Assembly (NCBI RefSeq): GCF_036324365.1
Contig: NZ_CP137080.1
Span: 1,736,001 to 1,800,000 of the forward strand
Length of the DNA: 64,000 nt
Source of the DNA: Microbacterium limosum
Lineage (GTDB): Bacteria > Actinomycetota > Actinomycetes > Actinomycetales > Microbacteriaceae
Direction: 5' to 3'
Shown: piece after piece, positions 20,117 to 27,200 of the stretch
Numbering within the stretch: the first letter of the stretch is position 1
Layout of the letters: each line of letters begins with the position of its first letter
The notes under the pieces: generated by a model
Database searches by the model: none
Told to the model about the DNA's origin: nothing
Seen by the model: the letters and a program-made list of their open reading frames with translations, nothing else
Made by a program: the position numbers and the translations under genes

Positions 20117-21163
20117 CTAGCGCCGCCGCGTCGCGTCCTGCACCTCGCCCACGAGCTCCTCGATGATGTCCTCGAGGAACACCACCCCCGTGGTCGCGCC
20201 CTGCTCGTCGCGCACGCGCGCCAGGTGGCGTCCGGCGCGGCGCATCGTGGCGAGCACGTCCTCGAGGTCGGTGCTCTCCTGCACGGGGATCATGTGGTGG
20301 ATGCGCTTGGCCGGCACCGGCACGTCGGCCCCGGCATCCGGCGACTCGGTCGCCCTCAGGATGTCCTTGAGGTGCACATAGCCGATCGGCTCCCCCTGGG
20401 CGTCGACGATCACGTACCGGGAGTACCCGTGCGATGCGACCGCCCGCTCGACCTCGGCGGGCGTCGTCGTCTCGGGCAGGGTGACGAGCGCGTCCAGCGG
20501 CACGGCGATGTCACGGGCCTTCTTGTCGGTGAACTCCACCGCGGCCACGACGGCGCCCGTGCGGTCCAGCAGCACCCCCTCCTGCGTCGACTGCGCCACG
20601 ATCGTGGCGACCTCGTCGAGCGTGAAGGTCGACGCGGCTTCGTCCTTGGGCTCCACCTTGAACAGCCGCAGTACGTGGTTGGCGATCCAGTTGAGCGTGA
20701 AGATGATCGGGTGGAACACGCGCGCGACCCACACGAGCGGCGTCGCGAGGATCAGGACCGCACGGTCGGGCAGCGAGAACGCGAGGTTCTTCGGCACCAT
20801 CTCGCCGAACACCACGTGCAGGTACGACACCACCAGGAGCGCGACGACGAACGCCGTGACATCGACGGCGGCCTCGGGAAGCCCCGTCAGCCCGAACGGC
20901 ACCTCGAGCAGGTGGTGGATCGCGGGCTCCGAGACGTTCAGGATCAGTAGCGAGCAGATCGTGATGCCCAGCTGCGAGGTGGCGAGCATGAGCGTGGCAT
21001 GCTCCATCGCGTACAGCGCCGTCTTCGCCGCACGGGATCCCCGCTCGGCGAGGGGCTCGATCTGGGAACGGCGCGCCGAGATCACGGCGAACTCGGCGCC
21101 GACGAAGAAGGCGTTGGCGATCAGCAGCACCACGAGCCAGACGATTCCCGCCCAGTCGCTCAT
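20117..21163 (-). CDS. DUF21/CBS-pair membrane protein (CNNM/CorC family)
   Basis: A 348-residue protein with an N-terminal DUF21 (CNNM) transmembrane domain (about 1-190: NAFFVGAEFAVISARRSQIE, SQLGITICSLLLNV-like, VFGEMVPKNLAFSLPDRA) and two CBS domains (about 205-340), ending FLEDIIEELVGEV. It lacks the C-terminal CorC_HlyC domain that the upstream gene has. DUF21-CBS proteins are linked to Mg2+ (and Co2+) efflux. It starts in an ATGA overlap with the upstream paralogue, so the two are co-translated and may form a heteromer. Confidence 0.88.
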   Translation of the reverse strand: MSDWAGIVWLVVLLIANAFFVGAEFAVISARRSQIEPLAERGSRAAKTALYAMEHATLMLATSQLGITICSLLILNVSEPAIHHLLEVPFGLTGLPEAAVDVTAFVVALLVVSYLHVVFGEMVPKNLAFSLPDRAVLILATPLVWVARVFHPIIFTLNWIANHVLRLFKVEPKDEAASTFTLDEVATIVAQSTQEGVLLDRTGAVVAAVEFTDKKARDIAVPLDALVTLPETTTPAEVERAVASHGYSRYVIVDAQGEPIGYVHLKDILRATESPDAGADVPVPAKRIHHMIPVQESTDLEDVLATMRRAGRHLARVRDEQGATTGVVFLEDIIEELVGEVQDATRRR

Positions 21164-22542
21164 CGCTCACCCCTCTCGTTCTGCCCGCGCGCACGCAGCA
21201 GCCGCTGCGGCCCCGTCTCGGCGGGGGGTTCGAGCCCGGTGTCCTCCGGGGGTCGCGGGACGTAGCGCACCCGATCGACCCGCCTACCGTCCATGCGCAG
21301 CACGGAGAGCGCTCCGTCCTCGAGCTCGATCTCGTCCCCCGCGACGGGGATCCTCTGCAGGCGGCTCATGATGAGACCCCCCACGGTGTCGTAGACCTCG
21401 CCCTCCGGCACCCGGATGCCGGTGCGGTCGAGCAGCTCGTCGGGACGCCAGGCTCCGGGGAACGTCAGGGAGTCCTTGCCCCGCACGAGTCCCGTGCGGC
21501 TGCGATCGTGTTCGTCCGAGACCTCGCCGACGATCTCCTCGACGAGATCCTCGAGCGTCACGACGCCGGCGGTGCCGCCGTACTCGTCGACCACGATCGC
21601 CAGCTGGTAGCCCCGCGCCCGCAGCTCCGCGATGAGCGCGTCGAGCCGCACCGTCTCCGGCACGCGCAGGGGCTCGCTCGCGAGCGCGGCGGCCGGGACG
21701 TCGGCGCGCCTGTCGCGGGGAACGCTCACGGCGGCCTTCAGGTGGACGACGCCGACGATGTCATCGAGCGACTCGCCGAACACGGGAAACCGGCTGTGAC
21801 CGGTCCGCCGGGCCAGCTGGATGACATCGTCCGCGGAGTCGTCGCGGGCGACGCAGTGCATGCTGGGCCGCGGGGTCATCACATCCGCCGCGCTCAGCCG
21901 CGAGAACGTCAGGGTGCGGTTCAGCAGCGACGCGGTGTCCTGCTCCAGGAGGCCGGCGCTCGCGGAGCGCCGCACGAGGGACGACAGCTCATCGGCTGTG
22001 CGCGCCCCGGAGAGCTCCTCCTTGGGCTCGACGCCGAGCGAGCGCAGGACGGCGTTGGCCGACCCGTTCAGCACCACGATCGCGGGCCGGAAGACCGTCG
22101 TGAAGGCGACCTGGAAGGGCATCACGAGCTTCGCGGTCTGGCGCGGCAGCGCGAGCGCGAAGTTCTTGGGGACGAGCTCGCCGATGATCATCGACAGCAT
22201 CGTCGCGACGGTGATGGAGACGACAACGGCCAGCGGCGAGACCAGTCCGCCGGGCAGACCCCAGCCGGTCAGCACCGGCCGGAGCAGGTTCGAGAGGGCC
22301 GGCTCCATCGTGTAGCCGGTCAGCAGCGTCGTCAGCGTGATGCCGAGCTGGGCGCTGGAGAGGTGCGTCGACGTGATCCGCAGCGCGCCGATCGTCAGCG
22401 ACAGCCTCGACTCGCCCTTCTCGCGGCGTGCCTCGAGATCGGCACGATCGAGATTGACGAGCGCGAACTCGCTGGCGACGAAGAGTCCGGTGCCGACGAT
22501 GAGCAGGAGCCCCACGCCCAGCATGAGGTACTCGTACGTCAT
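21160..22542 (-). CDS. DUF21/CBS/CorC_HlyC membrane protein (Mg2+ exporter-like)
   Basis: A 460-residue member of the CorC/CNNM/MpfA group. Domains in order: DUF21 membrane domain (about 1-200, [52 protein letters not shown]), CBS pair (about 205-345, [30 protein letters not shown]), then a CorC_HlyC domain (about 360-435). Family members export Mg2+. The ribosome site GAGGG (22551-22555) is inside a hairpin, and a 23-codon leader ORF ends in an ATGA overlap with this start codon, so expression is probably coupled to leader translation. Confidence 0.9.
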
Positions 22543-22610
22543 GCGTCACACCCTCGTTCGAGGGGGTGCGGGCGGTGGGGCGAGGGTCTGCGACTAGGAG
22601 GGTCGTCCAT
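22539..22610 (-). CDS. Candidate 23-aa acidic/proline-rich leader peptide
   Basis: ATG at 22610, 23 codons, and a TGA overlapping the ATG of the CorC-type gene (ATGA). The peptide starts MDDPPSRRPSP and continues with further His, Pro and Arg. An acidic run plus prolines right after Met is the composition known to destabilise ribosomes at low Mg2+, as in Salmonella MgtL (MEPDPTPLP...). TAGACT ends 10 nt before the ATG, so the ORF is at or within a few bases of the transcript 5' end. Codon use is unlike the neighbours (AGA, AGT, CCT). Its reality rests on position and composition; chance is possible because GC-rich DNA has few stops. Confidence 0.5.
   Translation of the reverse strand: MDDPPSRRPSPHRPHPLERGCDA
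22547..22568 (-). promoter_or_regulatory. Hairpin sequestering the CorC-type ribosome site
   Basis: On the transcribed strand CACCCCCTCG pairs with CGAGGGTGTG (nine pairs, one C-U mismatch). The second arm holds the GAGGG ribosome site and ends 4 nt before the CorC-type ATG. The hairpin lies within the last codons of the leader ORF, so a ribosome translating the leader to its end would open it. Confidence 0.55.
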
Positions 22611-22620
22611 TGTGCCGCTC

Positions 22621-22626
22621 AGTCTA
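22621..22626 (-). promoter_or_regulatory. -10 element for the leader ORF/CorC operon
   Basis: TAGACT with a predicted start point 1-4 nt before the leader ATG. No clear -35. Confidence 0.5.
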
Positions 22627-22653
22627 TCGGCGGTCTCCCCCGCGCCGCGCGCG

Positions 22654-24108
22654 TCACCAGCTGACGGGCAGGGCCTTGCCCTCCTCGTACCCCGCCGCGG
22701 ACTGCAGCCCCACGAGCGCCCTCTCGTGGAACTCCGGCACGTCCGACGCCCCGGCGTAGGTGAAGGAGGAGCGCACGCCGGAGGTGATCATGTCCAGGAG
22801 GTCCTCCAGGCCCGGCCGGAGCGGGTCGAGGTAGATCCGCGACGAGGAGATCCCCTCGGCGAAGAGCTCCTTGCGGGCACGCTCATAGGCATCCAGCCGC
22901 CCGAACCGCTCCTGCACCGCCTTCGTGGAGGCCATCCCCCACGACTCCTTGTAGGGCCGGCCGTCGGCATCGGTGAGCAGCTCGCCGGGCGCCTCGATCG
23001 TGCCGGCGAACCACGACCCGATCATGACGGATGCCGCACCCGCGGCCAGCGCGAGGGCGACGTCTCGCGGGTATCGCACCCCGCCGTCCGCCCACACATG
23101 GGCGCCCATCGCGCGGGCCGCCTCCGCCGTCTCCAGGACCGCGGAGAACTGCGGCCGGCCCACGGCCGTCATCATGCGGGTCGTGCACATCGCGCCGGGC
23201 CCCACACCGACCTTGAGGATCGTGGCGCCGGCGGTGACGAGGTCGTACACGCCCTCGGCCGTGACGACGTTCCCCGCGACGAGGGGGATGCGCAGGCCGA
23301 GGTCGGCGACGGCTCGGAGGGCCTCGAGCATGCCCTCCTGGTGCCCGTGAGCGGTGTCCACGACGAGCACGTCGACTCCGGCGGCGGCCAGCGCGCTCGC
23401 CTTGCCCGCCGGATCCCCGTTGATGCCGATCGCGGCGGCCACCGCGAGGCGTCCCGAGCGATCCAGCGAGGGACGGTACAGCGTGCCGCGCAGCGCACTC
23501 CGGCGGCTGAGCGTGCCGACGAGATGGCCGTGCTCGGTGACGCACATGATCTCGGCGCCGGCGGCCTCGATCACGTCGAAGGCCGCACGCGGGTCGGACA
23601 CGTCCTCCGCGTCGAGCGCGGGGACATCGTTGCGTGCCAGGTCGCCCAGGCGCGCATCCGGCAGCGCCGTCGCGAGACGCGACGCGGGGACGACGCCCCG
23701 GATGCCGGCCGCGTCGATCCGATCCGCCGGATCCGCGACGACGATGCCGTGACCCGACGTCGGCGGGAGCAGGCGCAGGGCATCCGCGACCGTCGCCTCC
23801 GGCGGCAGGACGAGCGGCGTGTCCCATGCGACTGGCTGACGCTTGACCCACCGGATCGCCGCATCGAGCTCCTGCAGCGGCATGTCCTGCGGCAGCACGC
23901 CGATCCCGCCGCGCCGCGCCAGCGTCGCAGCCAGCCGCGCGCCGGTCACCGAGTTCATGTTGGCGGAGACCAGCGGGAGGGTCGCGGGGGTGCCGTCCCG
24001 GGGGGCGAGGTCGACCTGGAGCCTGCTCGTCACCGCGGAGCGGCGCGGGACGAGGAAGACGTCGGAGTAGGTCAGATCGACCTGCGGGGCAGGTCCGTGA
24101 AAGTCCAT
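22654..24108 (-). CDS. guaB1: GuaB1-type IMP dehydrogenase-related GMP reductase
   Basis: A 484-residue IMPDH/GMP reductase-family protein. It has the beta/alpha barrel with two CBS domains in the middle (about 95-215). The catalytic-Cys segment GVGPGAMCTTRMMTAVGRPQ is the GuaB1 form. In mycobacteria GuaB1 is a CBS-containing GMP reductase that converts GMP to IMP, not an IMP dehydrogenase. ATG (MDFHG...) at 24108 with TACGTT 6 nt upstream, so leaderless; it is divergent from kgd. Confidence 0.9.
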   Translation of the reverse strand: MDFHGPAPQVDLTYSDVFLVPRRSAVTSRLQVDLAPRDGTPATLPLVSANMNSVTGARLAATLARRGGIGVLPQDMPLQELDAAIRWVKRQPVAWDTPLVLPPEATVADALRLLPPTSGHGIVVADPADRIDAAGIRGVVPASRLATALPDARLGDLARNDVPALDAEDVSDPRAAFDVIEAAGAEIMCVTEHGHLVGTLSRRSALRGTLYRPSLDRSGRLAVAAAIGINGDPAGKASALAAAGVDVLVVDTAHGHQEGMLEALRAVADLGLRIPLVAGNVVTAEGVYDLVTAGATILKVGVGPGAMCTTRMMTAVGRPQFSAVLETAEAARAMGAHVWADGGVRYPRDVALALAAGAASVMIGSWFAGTIEAPGELLTDADGRPYKESWGMASTKAVQERFGRLDAYERARKELFAEGISSSRIYLDPLRPGLEDLLDMITSGVRSSFTYAGASDVPEFHERALVGLQSAAGYEEGKALPVSW

Positions 24109-24114
24109 GTCGTT

Positions 24115-24120
24115 AACGTA
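24115..24120 (-). promoter_or_regulatory. -10 element, leaderless, guaB1
   Basis: TACGTT, 6 nt (AACGAC), then ATG. Confidence 0.5.
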
Positions 24121-24165
24121 TCCGTCGCCCTCCGCGCTCACGCCGACCCGCCGGGCAAACTGGGT

Positions 24166-24171
24166 TAGGCT
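24166..24171 (+). promoter_or_regulatory. -10 element upstream of kgd
   Basis: TAGGCT. A GTG that opens a 15-codon ORF lies 8 nt downstream (24180); the kgd starts are 52-73 nt further on. Confidence 0.5.
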
Positions 24172-24179
24172 TGACAGTC

Positions 24180-24227
24180 GTGCACGGGCGCCACCGGATG
24201 CCCGCGCGAACCAATCTGCACCGATGA
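24180..24227 (+). CDS. Candidate 15-aa leader ORF before kgd
   Basis: GTG at 24180 (8 nt after TAGGCT), 15 codons, and TGA at 24225-24227 overlapping the ATG at 24224 (ATGA). The peptide reads MHGRHRMPARTNLHR, rich in His and Arg. If real, kgd translation would be coupled to it. There is no ribosome site before ATG 24224, which would make coupling useful. A chance ORF cannot be excluded. Confidence 0.35.
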   Translation: MHGRHRMPARTNLHR

Positions 24228-24244
24228 AAGTGGGCGATCGAGCC

Positions 24245-27200
24245 GTGTCGAGCCAGGTGACGGGCGTCGGGACTTCGAGCGAGGGTGAATTCGGGGCCAA
24301 CGAATGGCTCGTCGACGAACTCTACGAGCAGTTCAAAGCAGACAAGAACTCCGTCGACAAGGCATGGTGGCCGGTCCTCGAGGCCTATCACCCCGTCGAC
24401 CAGCACGCGGACCCGGCGCCTTCGACGCCCGCGCGTTCCGAGCAGGTCTCGGAGGCTGCGCCGCCCAAGGCGGATGCCCCGGCCGCCGCACGAGGCGAAG
24501 GCTTCGGCGAGCCGCGCCCCGTCACCGCCCCCGTGCCCGTGATCGGCGCGCAGCCGGTCGCGCGCACGACGGCGCGGCCCGCGTCGCCGCAGCCGATCCC
24601 CGCGCAGGCGCCCGTCTCCACAGCGGGCGGCTCGGACGAGGCGCTCGAGGACGACAAGGTCACGCCCCTGCGGGGAATGCCGAAGACCCTCGCCGCGAAC
24701 ATGGACGAGTCGCTGACCGTCCCCACCGCGACCAGCGTGCGCACCATCCCCGCGAAGCTGATGATCGACAACCGCATCGTCATCAACAACCACATGTCGC
24801 GCACGCGGGGCGGCAAGATCAGCTTCACCCACCTCATCGGCTGGGCCATCATCCAGACGCTCAAGGCGTTCCCCAGCCAGAACGTCTTCTACGCCGAGAT
24901 CGACGGCAAGCCCTCCGTCGTCGCTCCCGCGCACATCAACCTCGGCATCGCGATCGACCTGCCCAAGCCGGACGGCACGCGTGCGCTAATGGTCCCGAGC
25001 ATCAAGCGCGCCGACACGATGACGTTCGGCGAGTACCTCGCCTCCTACGAGGACCTCGTCGGCCGCGCCCGCGCCGGCAAGCTCTCCGCGGCCGACTTCC
25101 AGGGCACGACCATCTCGCTCACCAACCCCGGCGGCATCGGGACGGTGCACTCCGTTCCCCGCCTCATGAAGGGCCAGGGCTGCATCGTCGGCGCCGGTGC
25201 CCTGGAGTACCCCGCCGAGTTCCAGGGCGCGAGCGAGAAGACGCTCAGCGAGCTCGCGATCGGCAAGACGATCACGCTCACGAGCACCTACGACCACCGC
25301 GTCATCCAGGGTGCCGGGTCGGGCGAGTTCCTCAAGAAGATCCACGAGCTGCTCACGGGGCACCACGGGTTCTACAACGACATCTTCGCGGCCCTGCGCA
25401 TCCCCTACGCCCCGATCCACTGGGCGAGCGACATCAACGTCGACGTCGCCGAACGGATCGACAAGACGGCTCGCGTGCAGGAGCTCATCAACTCGTTCCG
25501 CGTCCGCGGGCACCTCATGGCCGACATCGACCCGCTCGAGTACGTCCAGCGCACCCACCCCGATCTCGAGATCGAGAACCACGGGCTGACGTTCTGGGAC
25601 CTCGACCGCGAGTTCGTCACGGGCGGCTTCGGCGGCAAGCGCGTCATGAAGCTCCGCGACATCCTCGGCGTCCTGCGGGACTCGTACTGCCGCACCATCG
25701 GCCTCGAGTACATGCACATCCAGGACCCGGGTCAGCGCCGCTGGTTCCAGGAGAAGGTCGAGGTGAAGTACACCAAGCCCGGCCACGACGAGCAGCTGCG
25801 CATCCTGTCCAAGCTCAACGAGGCCGAGGCGTTCGAGACCTTCCTGCAGACGAAGTACGTCGGGCAGAAGCGGTTCAGCCTCGAGGGCGGCGAAGCGCTC
25901 ATCCCGCTGCTCGACGAGATCCTCCAGGGCGCCGCCGAGGCCCGGCTCGACGGCGCGGCCATCGGCATGGCGCACCGCGGTCGCCTCAACGTGCTGACGA
26001 ACATCGCCGGCAAGACGTACGGCCAGGTCTTCCGCGAGTTCGAGGGAAGCGTCGCCCTCGGCAACAAGCGCGGGTCCGGCGACGTGAAGTACCACCTCGG
26101 CACCGAGGGGACGTTCGTCGATGACCGCGGCACCGAGCTTCCCGTGTACCTCGCAGCGAACCCCTCCCACCTGGAGACCGTGAACGGCGTGCTCGAGGGC
26201 ATCGTCCGCGCCAAGCAGGACCGCCGCCCGATCGGGTCGTTCTCGTGGCTGCCGATCCTCGTCCACGGCGACGCGGCCTTCGCCGGTCAGGGCGTCGTCG
26301 TCGAGACGCTGCAGATGTCGCAGCTGCGCGCCTACCGCACCGGCGGCACCATCCACGTCGTGGTGAACAACCAGGTGGGCTTCACGACCCTCCCGCAGGA
26401 CGGCCGCAGTTCGGTGTACGCCACGGATGTCGCGAAGACGATCCAGGCGCCGATCTTCCACGTCAACGGCGATGACCCCGAGGCCGTCGTCCGGGTCGCC
26501 CAGCTCGCCTTCGCCTACCGCGAGGAGTTCCACCGCGACGTCGTGATCGACGTGGTGTGCTACCGCCGACGCGGACACAACGAGGGCGACGACCCCTCGA
26601 TGACGCAGCCGCTGATGACGAATCTCATCGAGGCCAAGCGCTCGGTGCGGCGCCTCTACACCGAGTCGTTGGTGGGTCGCGGCGACATCACCGAGGAGGA
26701 GTACGAAAGCGCCAAGCGCGATTTCCAGGACCGCCTCGAGGTCGCGTTCGCCGAGACCCACGCCGCCGAGACGGGCTCGCACGACATCGTCACCGACGGC
26801 ACCGTGGACGGCGCCGAGGAGGAGCTGAACTGGGGCGAGCTCGAGACGACCGGCGTCTCCGGCGACGTCGTGCGCCTGATCGGCGACGCGTTCGTCAACA
26901 AGCCCGAGGGCTTCACGGTGCACCCGAAGATCCAGCAGTTGCTCGACAAGCGCCTCGACATGAGCCGCAAGGGCGGCATCGACTGGGCGTTCGGAGAGCT
27001 CCTGGCGTTCGGCTCCCTGCTGCTGGAGGGCACGAACGTCCGCCTGGCGGGACAGGACTCCCGTCGAGGCACGTTCGTGCAGCGCCACTCGGTGCTCCAC
27101 GATCGCGCCAACGGGCAGGAGTGGATCCCCCTCGCCAACCTCAGCGATCGTCAGGGCCGCTTCTGGGTCTACGACTCCCTGCTGAGCGAGTACGCCGCGA

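Follow-up and report, generated by a model that had tools for sequence, protein, structure and literature searches.

How might the synthesis of a Mg2+ transporter be tied to the Mg2+ inside the cell? One locus in the window (the whole 64,000-nucleotide stretch of Microbacterium limosum DNA analysed here, from the genome labelled G000) raises this question, as a short reading frame rich in acidic residues and proline at its start ends exactly where a corC gene begins. The preliminary description had reported a TAGACT box just 5' of an ATG at 22610, a 23-codon frame opening MDDPP from that ATG, and an overlap between the stop of this frame and the corC start. Each of these is present in the window sequence: the box lies at 22626-22621, leaving a gap of 10 nt to the ATG, and the overlap reads ATGA. 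The features of the locus are listed below, in the direction of transcription.

22654-24300, minus strand: guaB1, upstream of the TAGACT box
22621..22626, minus strand: -10-like box TAGACT, 10 nt 5' of the leader ATG at 22610
22611..22614, minus strand: probable transcript start zone, predicted from the box position; 5' UTR of ~1-4 nt
22539..22610, minus strand: leader ORF of 23 codons, ATG at 22610, TGA at 22541-22539; frame conserved in relatives
22596..22607, minus strand: conserved core, leader codons 2-5, Asp-Asp-Pro-Pro; family-wide codon signature
22547..22568, minus strand: hairpin suggested earlier, 8 pairs; not conserved as a structure
22551..22555, minus strand: GAGGG, candidate ribosome site of corC1, read from the sequence
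22539..22542, minus strand: ATGA, formed by the leader TGA (22541-22539) and the corC1 ATG (22542-22540); overlap retained in relatives
21160..22542, minus strand: corC1, with CNNM, CBS pair and CorC domains, from Pfam and structure-entry matches
20117..21163, minus strand: corC2, with CNNM and CBS pair, from Pfam; its start overlaps the corC1 stop

The corC genes and the surrounding sequence

The corC1 product matches the Pfam models CNNM, CBS and CorC_HlyC, all above cut-off, and the structure entries of E. coli CorC (4hg0) and archaeal CorB (7m1t). This domain content predicts that corC1 is probably a Mg2+ exporter gene; the accessible part of one report (PMC8242095) describes a debate on whether the role of CNNM/CorB proteins is export, import or regulation. 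Pfam models for two other Mg2+ transporter families, MgtE (PF01769) and CorA (PF01544), gave no match in the window's genome, and its Mg2+ importer must therefore come from neither of these two families.

Simple scans of 22400-22900 gave neither a -35 partner for a sigma-70 -35/-10 pair nor an intrinsic terminator. A search of 22000-23200 for a Mg2+ riboswitch (Mbox, ykoK) or any other Rfam element gave no match up to E=1, and on this absence a riboswitch was rejected as the control device.

Conservation of the leader in Microbacteriaceae

Relatives were found with the corC protein as query, which matched 58 of 59 genomes in the genus, 149 of 150 in the family, 171 of 198 in the order and 76 of 118 in the class. 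Two sets of Microbacterium loci were used: 36 loci chosen by best score out of more genomes, together with ones met in the family and order searches, and a second set consisting of the best 80 of a longer list, nearly all titled Microbacterium, which overlaps the first. The set from other genera of the family (n=131) combines 128 of the 147 matching genomes with 3 same-family genomes from the order search. Leaders were counted either by a sequence criterion, the start MD[DEH]PP, or by a sequence-blind one: an ATG or GTG that follows TANNNT by 8-11 bases and opens a frame whose stop lies on a corC start.

By the sequence criterion, 36/36 Microbacterium loci have a frame that opens MD[DEH]PP and runs to the corC start, as do 80/80 of the overlapping second set (best 80). 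So do 103 of the 131 loci from other genera, a rate that may be optimistic because most of the 19 other-genus genomes left out had corC matches at the weak end of the range (one ended at a contig edge). The acidic/Pro leader that the preliminary description expected from an alignment across Microbacteriaceae is borne out by these counts; it had also named loss of the frame in close relatives as evidence against its proposal, and the frame is instead conserved.

The elements on either side of the leader are kept with it. The ATG of MD[DEH]PP leaders follows TANNNT by 9 or 10 nt in 36/36 cases in the first Microbacterium set, 95/103 in the other genera and 79/80 in the second Microbacterium set; this usual spacing of 9-10 nt suggests a near-leaderless mRNA with only a few bases of 5' UTR. 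The start-stop overlap seen as ATGA in the window is likewise conserved: the leader stop falls at -3..+16 of corC codon 1 in 36/36, 102/103 and 80/80 leaders, respectively, compared with 1 and 4 (n=36), 9 and 4 (n=103) and 7 and 8 (n=80) stops in the same interval for the two other frames. Leader length varies from 11 to 63 aa, with the frame still reaching the corC start.

The sequence-blind criterion recovered leaders at 111/131 other-genus loci and 35/36 Microbacterium loci. All 111 other-genus leaders carry Asp or Glu within residues 2-6 (two or more in 102), compared with an off-frame rate of 1.7% over all leaders of the sequence-blind set, and 109 of the 111 carry Pro within residues 2-7. 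Comparison across the family thus shows the promoter-like box, the peptide core, the frame and the overlap to be conserved; on this comparative evidence, the leader ORF is genuine and strongly selected.

Selection on the peptide

In the 111 other-genus leaders, the mean pairwise identity of codons 2-5 is 0.86-0.98 at positions 1 and 2 and 0.32-0.69 at position 3. At codons 7-8 it is 0.27-0.39 at all positions, at codon 9 it is 0.51 at position 2, and in the DNA 31-60 bases upstream it is 0.29. Because codons 2-5 are conserved at their first two positions and drift at the third, selection acts on the peptide; judged from these codon patterns, it is confined to the first five or six residues. 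Within the core, the acid at residue 2 is the better retained: Asp/Glu in 109/111, compared with Pro at residue 4 in 101 and at residue 5 in 99. In Microbacterium alone (35 leaders), there is no third-position variation at codons 2, 3 and 6, and since codons 2-3 are invariant there even at position 3, this set by itself cannot tell peptide from DNA.

A separate observation concerns 22560-22592 and the corresponding DNA of relatives. A second motif, [SA]-[HC]-[RKS]-P-x-P, recurs by eye after the core, encoded in many relatives by CAT-AGA-CCC-TCG-CCC or TGT-AGA-CCC-TCG-CCC. It recurs despite the variability from codon 7 onward, and may act at the peptide or the RNA level.

The hairpin and the ribosome site

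The preliminary description had placed the corC1 ribosome site inside a hairpin of 10 pairs at 22547-22568. A hairpin exists there and covers GAGGG at 22551-22555; it has 8 pairs (3+5), separated by a C.U mismatch and closed by a 4-nt loop. What had been built upon it fared less well. Folding the 53 equal-length leaders among 102 distinct Microbacterium leaders gave a consensus of ~-4.7 kcal/mol, with three partly varying pairs adjoining the ribosome site and nucleotide-level conservation over codons 1-8; we do not regard this as a convincing consensus fold. Seven relatives folded individually have hairpins at the same place, with other sequences and shapes. Non-conservation of the hairpin in close relatives had been put forward at the outset as grounds for doubt, and for the hairpin this is what we find.

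Accessibility of the ribosome site gave a similar answer. We compared the leaders with codon-permuted controls, after dropping repeated sequences and leaders whose zone lay too near the ATG. Mean accessibility of the ribosome-site zone was 0.27, 0.30 and 0.29 in sets of 36, 77 and 103 leaders, versus 0.26, 0.30 and 0.31 in the controls, so that the zone is no more buried than permutation would make it. In the 103-leader set, 61% of leaders lie below their own permuted control (mean z -0.17). In the window the accessibility is 0.20 versus 0.29 permuted, and in 26% of permuted leaders the site is at least as closed. On consensus folding and codon-permutation accessibility together, a hairpin-gated ribosome site was rejected as the main device.

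Counts of the ribosome site itself are affected by our taking the corC start nearest the leader end: a site was recognised in 35/36 and 80/80 Microbacterium loci, and none was recognised before corC in 61/103 other-genus loci. Since nearly all Microbacterium loci have one, the site may play some role within that genus; because so many other-genus loci lack a recognised one, coupling by reinitiation fits better than hairpin melting. Overlap-driven reinitiation is predicted to be the trait common to all leaders, and a hairpin gate is not supported by these comparisons.

Specificity, exceptions and paralogs

How specific is the core to corC? The pattern ATGGAYGAYCCNCC occurs 1 time in the window's genome and at 89 sites in the 59 genus genomes, with at least 1 per genome. 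By position, 59 of these sites are attributed to the corC leader, 2 to corC paralogs and 28 to neither; among the 17 of these 28 other MDDPP sites that were examined, none has TANNNT within the 22 nt preceding it. A corC paralog in another Microbacterium, with 61% identity to CorC1, has its own overlapping MDDPP leader, MDDPPSHSPAPF... A paralog in genome G025 (L357) is preceded by the leader MDDPPGS with a TANNNT box, the stop of which falls ~60 nt before the paralog start, leaving it uncoupled.

The 28 family loci without MD[DEH]PP divide into four kinds. Twenty have a short overlapping frame with an early acid, such as MDDHHHRHSP, VTDDHSHSPEPEP, VNDDNSHSPKPDP and MEHDKPK; 2 are doubtful (L136, L164); 5 show no leader (L131, L172, L178, L181, L183); and 1 is a fusion. 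In this last locus (L167), CorC carries MDDPPS as an in-frame fusion at its start (MDDPPSAELLLLIAGLLL), again 10 nt behind the box. It looks as though the exporter had taken over the sensor start as its own N-terminus, though a single case of this kind could be an assembly slip.

Overlapping frames outside the family

Outside Microbacteriaceae we examined 75 of the 157 matching order genomes and 22 of the 68 further matching class genomes (families carry the working labels f1-f53). Several other actinobacterial families also have short frames that overlap corC, acidic in some cases (MDDPPSHMP, MDPDSCSPS, VTDPDSAG, MDDHPSS) and not in others (MPSRRC, MRSAFR, MSSSSS). Two large-genome families have the overlapping frame farther from any -10-like box, with recurring Cys-Ser in both: f36 (L248, L252, L257, L266) has MKDSDDAGCSSGRPTR-type leaders with a GGAAGG-type site in front, and f37 (L263, L268) has MDGSSCSTCAAP-type overlapping leaders. 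The 7 loci of f18 have no leader by the promoter criterion; at three of them (L228, L229, L235) corC itself starts ACTATGACCGAGTGG ~9 nt behind TAGGAT, as if it were directly near-leaderless. Because overlap is found in other families with and without acids, it is more widespread than the acidic/proline start, which marks Microbacteriaceae.

A proposed mechanism

What would such a leader do? By analogy with the systems compared below, we infer a near-leaderless transcript, its translation, reinitiation at corC1, destabilisation of the ribosome, Mg2+ as the signal and export as the direction of transport. The leader's own promoter would transcribe the short ORF with almost no 5' UTR, and ribosomes would initiate at its ATG and read Met-Asp-Asp-Pro-Pro, an acidic/proline N-terminus that would act as an intrinsically ribosome-destabilising sequence. 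At low cytosolic Mg2+ this would lead to early abortion, leaving corC1 and the coupled corC2 little translated. At ample Mg2+ the leader would be completed: surviving ribosomes would reach the stop on the corC start, they or their small subunits would reinitiate there, and the exporter would be made.

Mg2+ sensing through ribosome destabilisation is plausible by likeness to MgtL, MgtQ and the YbeX N-terminus. We lean slightly towards the proposal that a near-leaderless, coupled MDDPP leader aborts ribosomes at low Mg2+ and so starves the exporter of translation. The broader proposal would make ribosome stability on a near-leaderless MDDPP start, wired to corC by reinitiation, a family-wide Mg2+ gauge that shuts the exporter at low Mg2+, convergent with MgtL, opposite to it in outcome and parallel to the YbeX N-terminus, with the sensor fused to its target in one relative; this we judge evenly poised between right and wrong. 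With an exporter downstream, completion of the leader at high Mg2+ gives control a sensible sign. The sign is nevertheless uncertain, because the direction of CNNM/CorB transport is debated and because abortion on MgtQ raises output, as far as the available parts of the respective reports go. In favour of the Mg2+ reading, beside the conservation itself, are the single occurrence of the core pattern in the window's genome, the paralog with its own overlapping MDDPP leader and the fusion at L167. Counting against it are the five family loci with no leader, the non-acidic frames elsewhere, the uncoupled MDDPPGS paralog, a DDPP core in place of the tested EPDP, and the invariance of codons 2-3 in Microbacterium down to the third position.

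Alternative explanations

Plain translational coupling would dispense with Mg2+ sensing altogether: the leader would merely deliver ribosomes to corC, with DDPP setting a constant flux. Overlap and frame are indeed the most conserved traits of the leader, several other families have acid-free overlapping leaders, and in mycobacteria coupled leaderless ORFs are common and a conserved sequence is unneeded, according to the available part of one study (PMC4633059). Strong selection for Asp-Asp-Pro-Pro, limited to the first residues, would nevertheless be superfluous for coupling alone, and we consider this explanation rather doubtful, if deserving of attention. The two prolines could instead sense proline or EF-P supply, Pro-Pro stalling altering corC translation when prolyl-tRNA or EF-P is short. 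Pro is found at residue 4 in 101 and at residue 5 in 99 of the 111 leaders, and the portion seen of a study of M. tuberculosis reports that Pth depletion causes peptidyl-prolyl-tRNA to accumulate (PMC9973355); but acids outlast prolines among the leaders and the downstream gene is of a Mg2+ transporter type, which make a proline sensor improbable.

A hairpin formed by the leader's last codons, keeping the ribosome site of corC closed until a translating ribosome opens it, would account for the hairpin of the window, the differing hairpins of the seven folded relatives, the ribosome site in nearly all Microbacterium loci and some variation in the three consensus pairs beside it. Given the lack of a convincing consensus fold, an accessibility that matches codon-permuted controls in all three sets (36, 77 and 103 leaders) with 26% as closed in the window, and the 61/103 other-genus loci without a recognised site, we think such a gate very unlikely. 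Least credible to us is that the conservation reflects a nucleic-acid element (a downstream promoter element or an RNA motif) or a peptide acting in trans. The third positions of codons 2, 3 and 6 fixed in 35 Microbacterium leaders and the nucleotide-level conservation of codons 1-8 in the 53-leader consensus would suit an element of this kind, against which stand the third-position drift of codons 2-5 in other genera and the absence of an Rfam match in 22000-23200; a length of 11-63 aa and an unconserved tail speak against a trans-acting peptide. Together, the acid outlasting the prolines, the drift at third positions and the identity of the gene favour ribosome destabilisation, without separating it from constant coupling.

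If the ribosome-destabilisation proposal is true, acidic/proline destabilisation would be a repeatedly evolved setter of bacterial Mg2+ efflux, not confined to the enterobacterial examples, and one that operates on near-leaderless mRNAs. The sensor would also be recognisable in genomes as a box, ~10 nt, ATG-GAY-GAY-CCN-CCN and a stop on the next start. Natural variants for comparison are at hand: lengths of 11-63 aa, prolines lost, leader lost and leader fused.

Comparison with known systems

The comparisons that follow refer to the accessible portions of the cited reports. In MgtL, the leader of mgtA in Salmonella and E. coli, low Mg2+ makes ribosomes abort at EPDP; when both acids were changed, the signal of the downstream reporter was abolished (PMC11282234). 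MgtL resembles the corC leader in combining an early acid with proline, in having abortion read as low Mg2+, and in adjoining a Mg2+ transporter gene (PMC11282234); the sequence tested there is EPDP, and the start of the corC leader is DDPP. MgtL differs in that Rho-dependent transcription termination turns an importer on, whereas here there is an overlap, no terminator was found in the scanned region, and the exporter is expected to be off. MgtQ of Salmonella mgtB is likewise a short ORF that controls translation of a Mg2+ transporter, and it has acidic residues at positions 2 and 5 (PMC8092293). It acts by way of alternative stem-loops and sits in a 219-nt gap, 51 nt downstream of mgtC, and its abortion raises an importer (PMC8092293); in the corC leader there is no conserved stem-loop, and the stop overlaps the gene.

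YoaL of yoaE/mgpA in E. coli and Salmonella likewise overlaps its gene, which encodes a Mg2+ stress transporter, at the start (PMC12421838), by 13 nt in E. coli K-12. Loss of the YoaL start lowers MgpA translation, and a role for Mg2+ is hypothesised (PMC12421838). Unlike the corC leader, YoaL (52 aa) lacks an acidic-proline run, its start being MDRHRRHFS, and its gene is of the TerC type. The start of E. coli CorC/YbeX is reported as ribosome-destabilising, and in Salmonella both corC and mgpA go up when Mg2+ is high (PMC12421838). This CorC-domain protein begins MSDDNSHSSD, comparable to the two family leaders that read VTDDHSHSPEPEP and VNDDNSHSPKPDP; its acidic start lies inside the main protein and not in a leader, an arrangement that only the fusion locus L167 has here.

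Among actinobacteria, the coupled leaderless uORFs of mycobacteria also place a small ORF at the transcript start with a TGA that overlaps the next RTG (PMC4633059). Their transcripts begin at the ATG itself, and the portion available describes no acidic-proline core (PMC4633059), whereas here, to judge by the box spacing, a few bases would precede the ATG. The mycobacterial Mbox riboswitch with its uORF is a further case of actinobacterial Mg2+ control using an upstream ORF; in it the riboswitch senses Mg2+ and controls the uORF (PMC12810186), whereas here the ORF itself is the putative sensor, with no Rfam element in 22000-23200. We found no description of an actinobacterial corC leader in the open-licence PMC literature, which is weak evidence of absence. 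The parts of this system, coupled leaderless uORFs and acidic/proline Mg2+ leaders, are known; their combination in a near-leaderless, coupled leader before an exporter gene, family-wide in actinobacteria, did not turn up in that literature.
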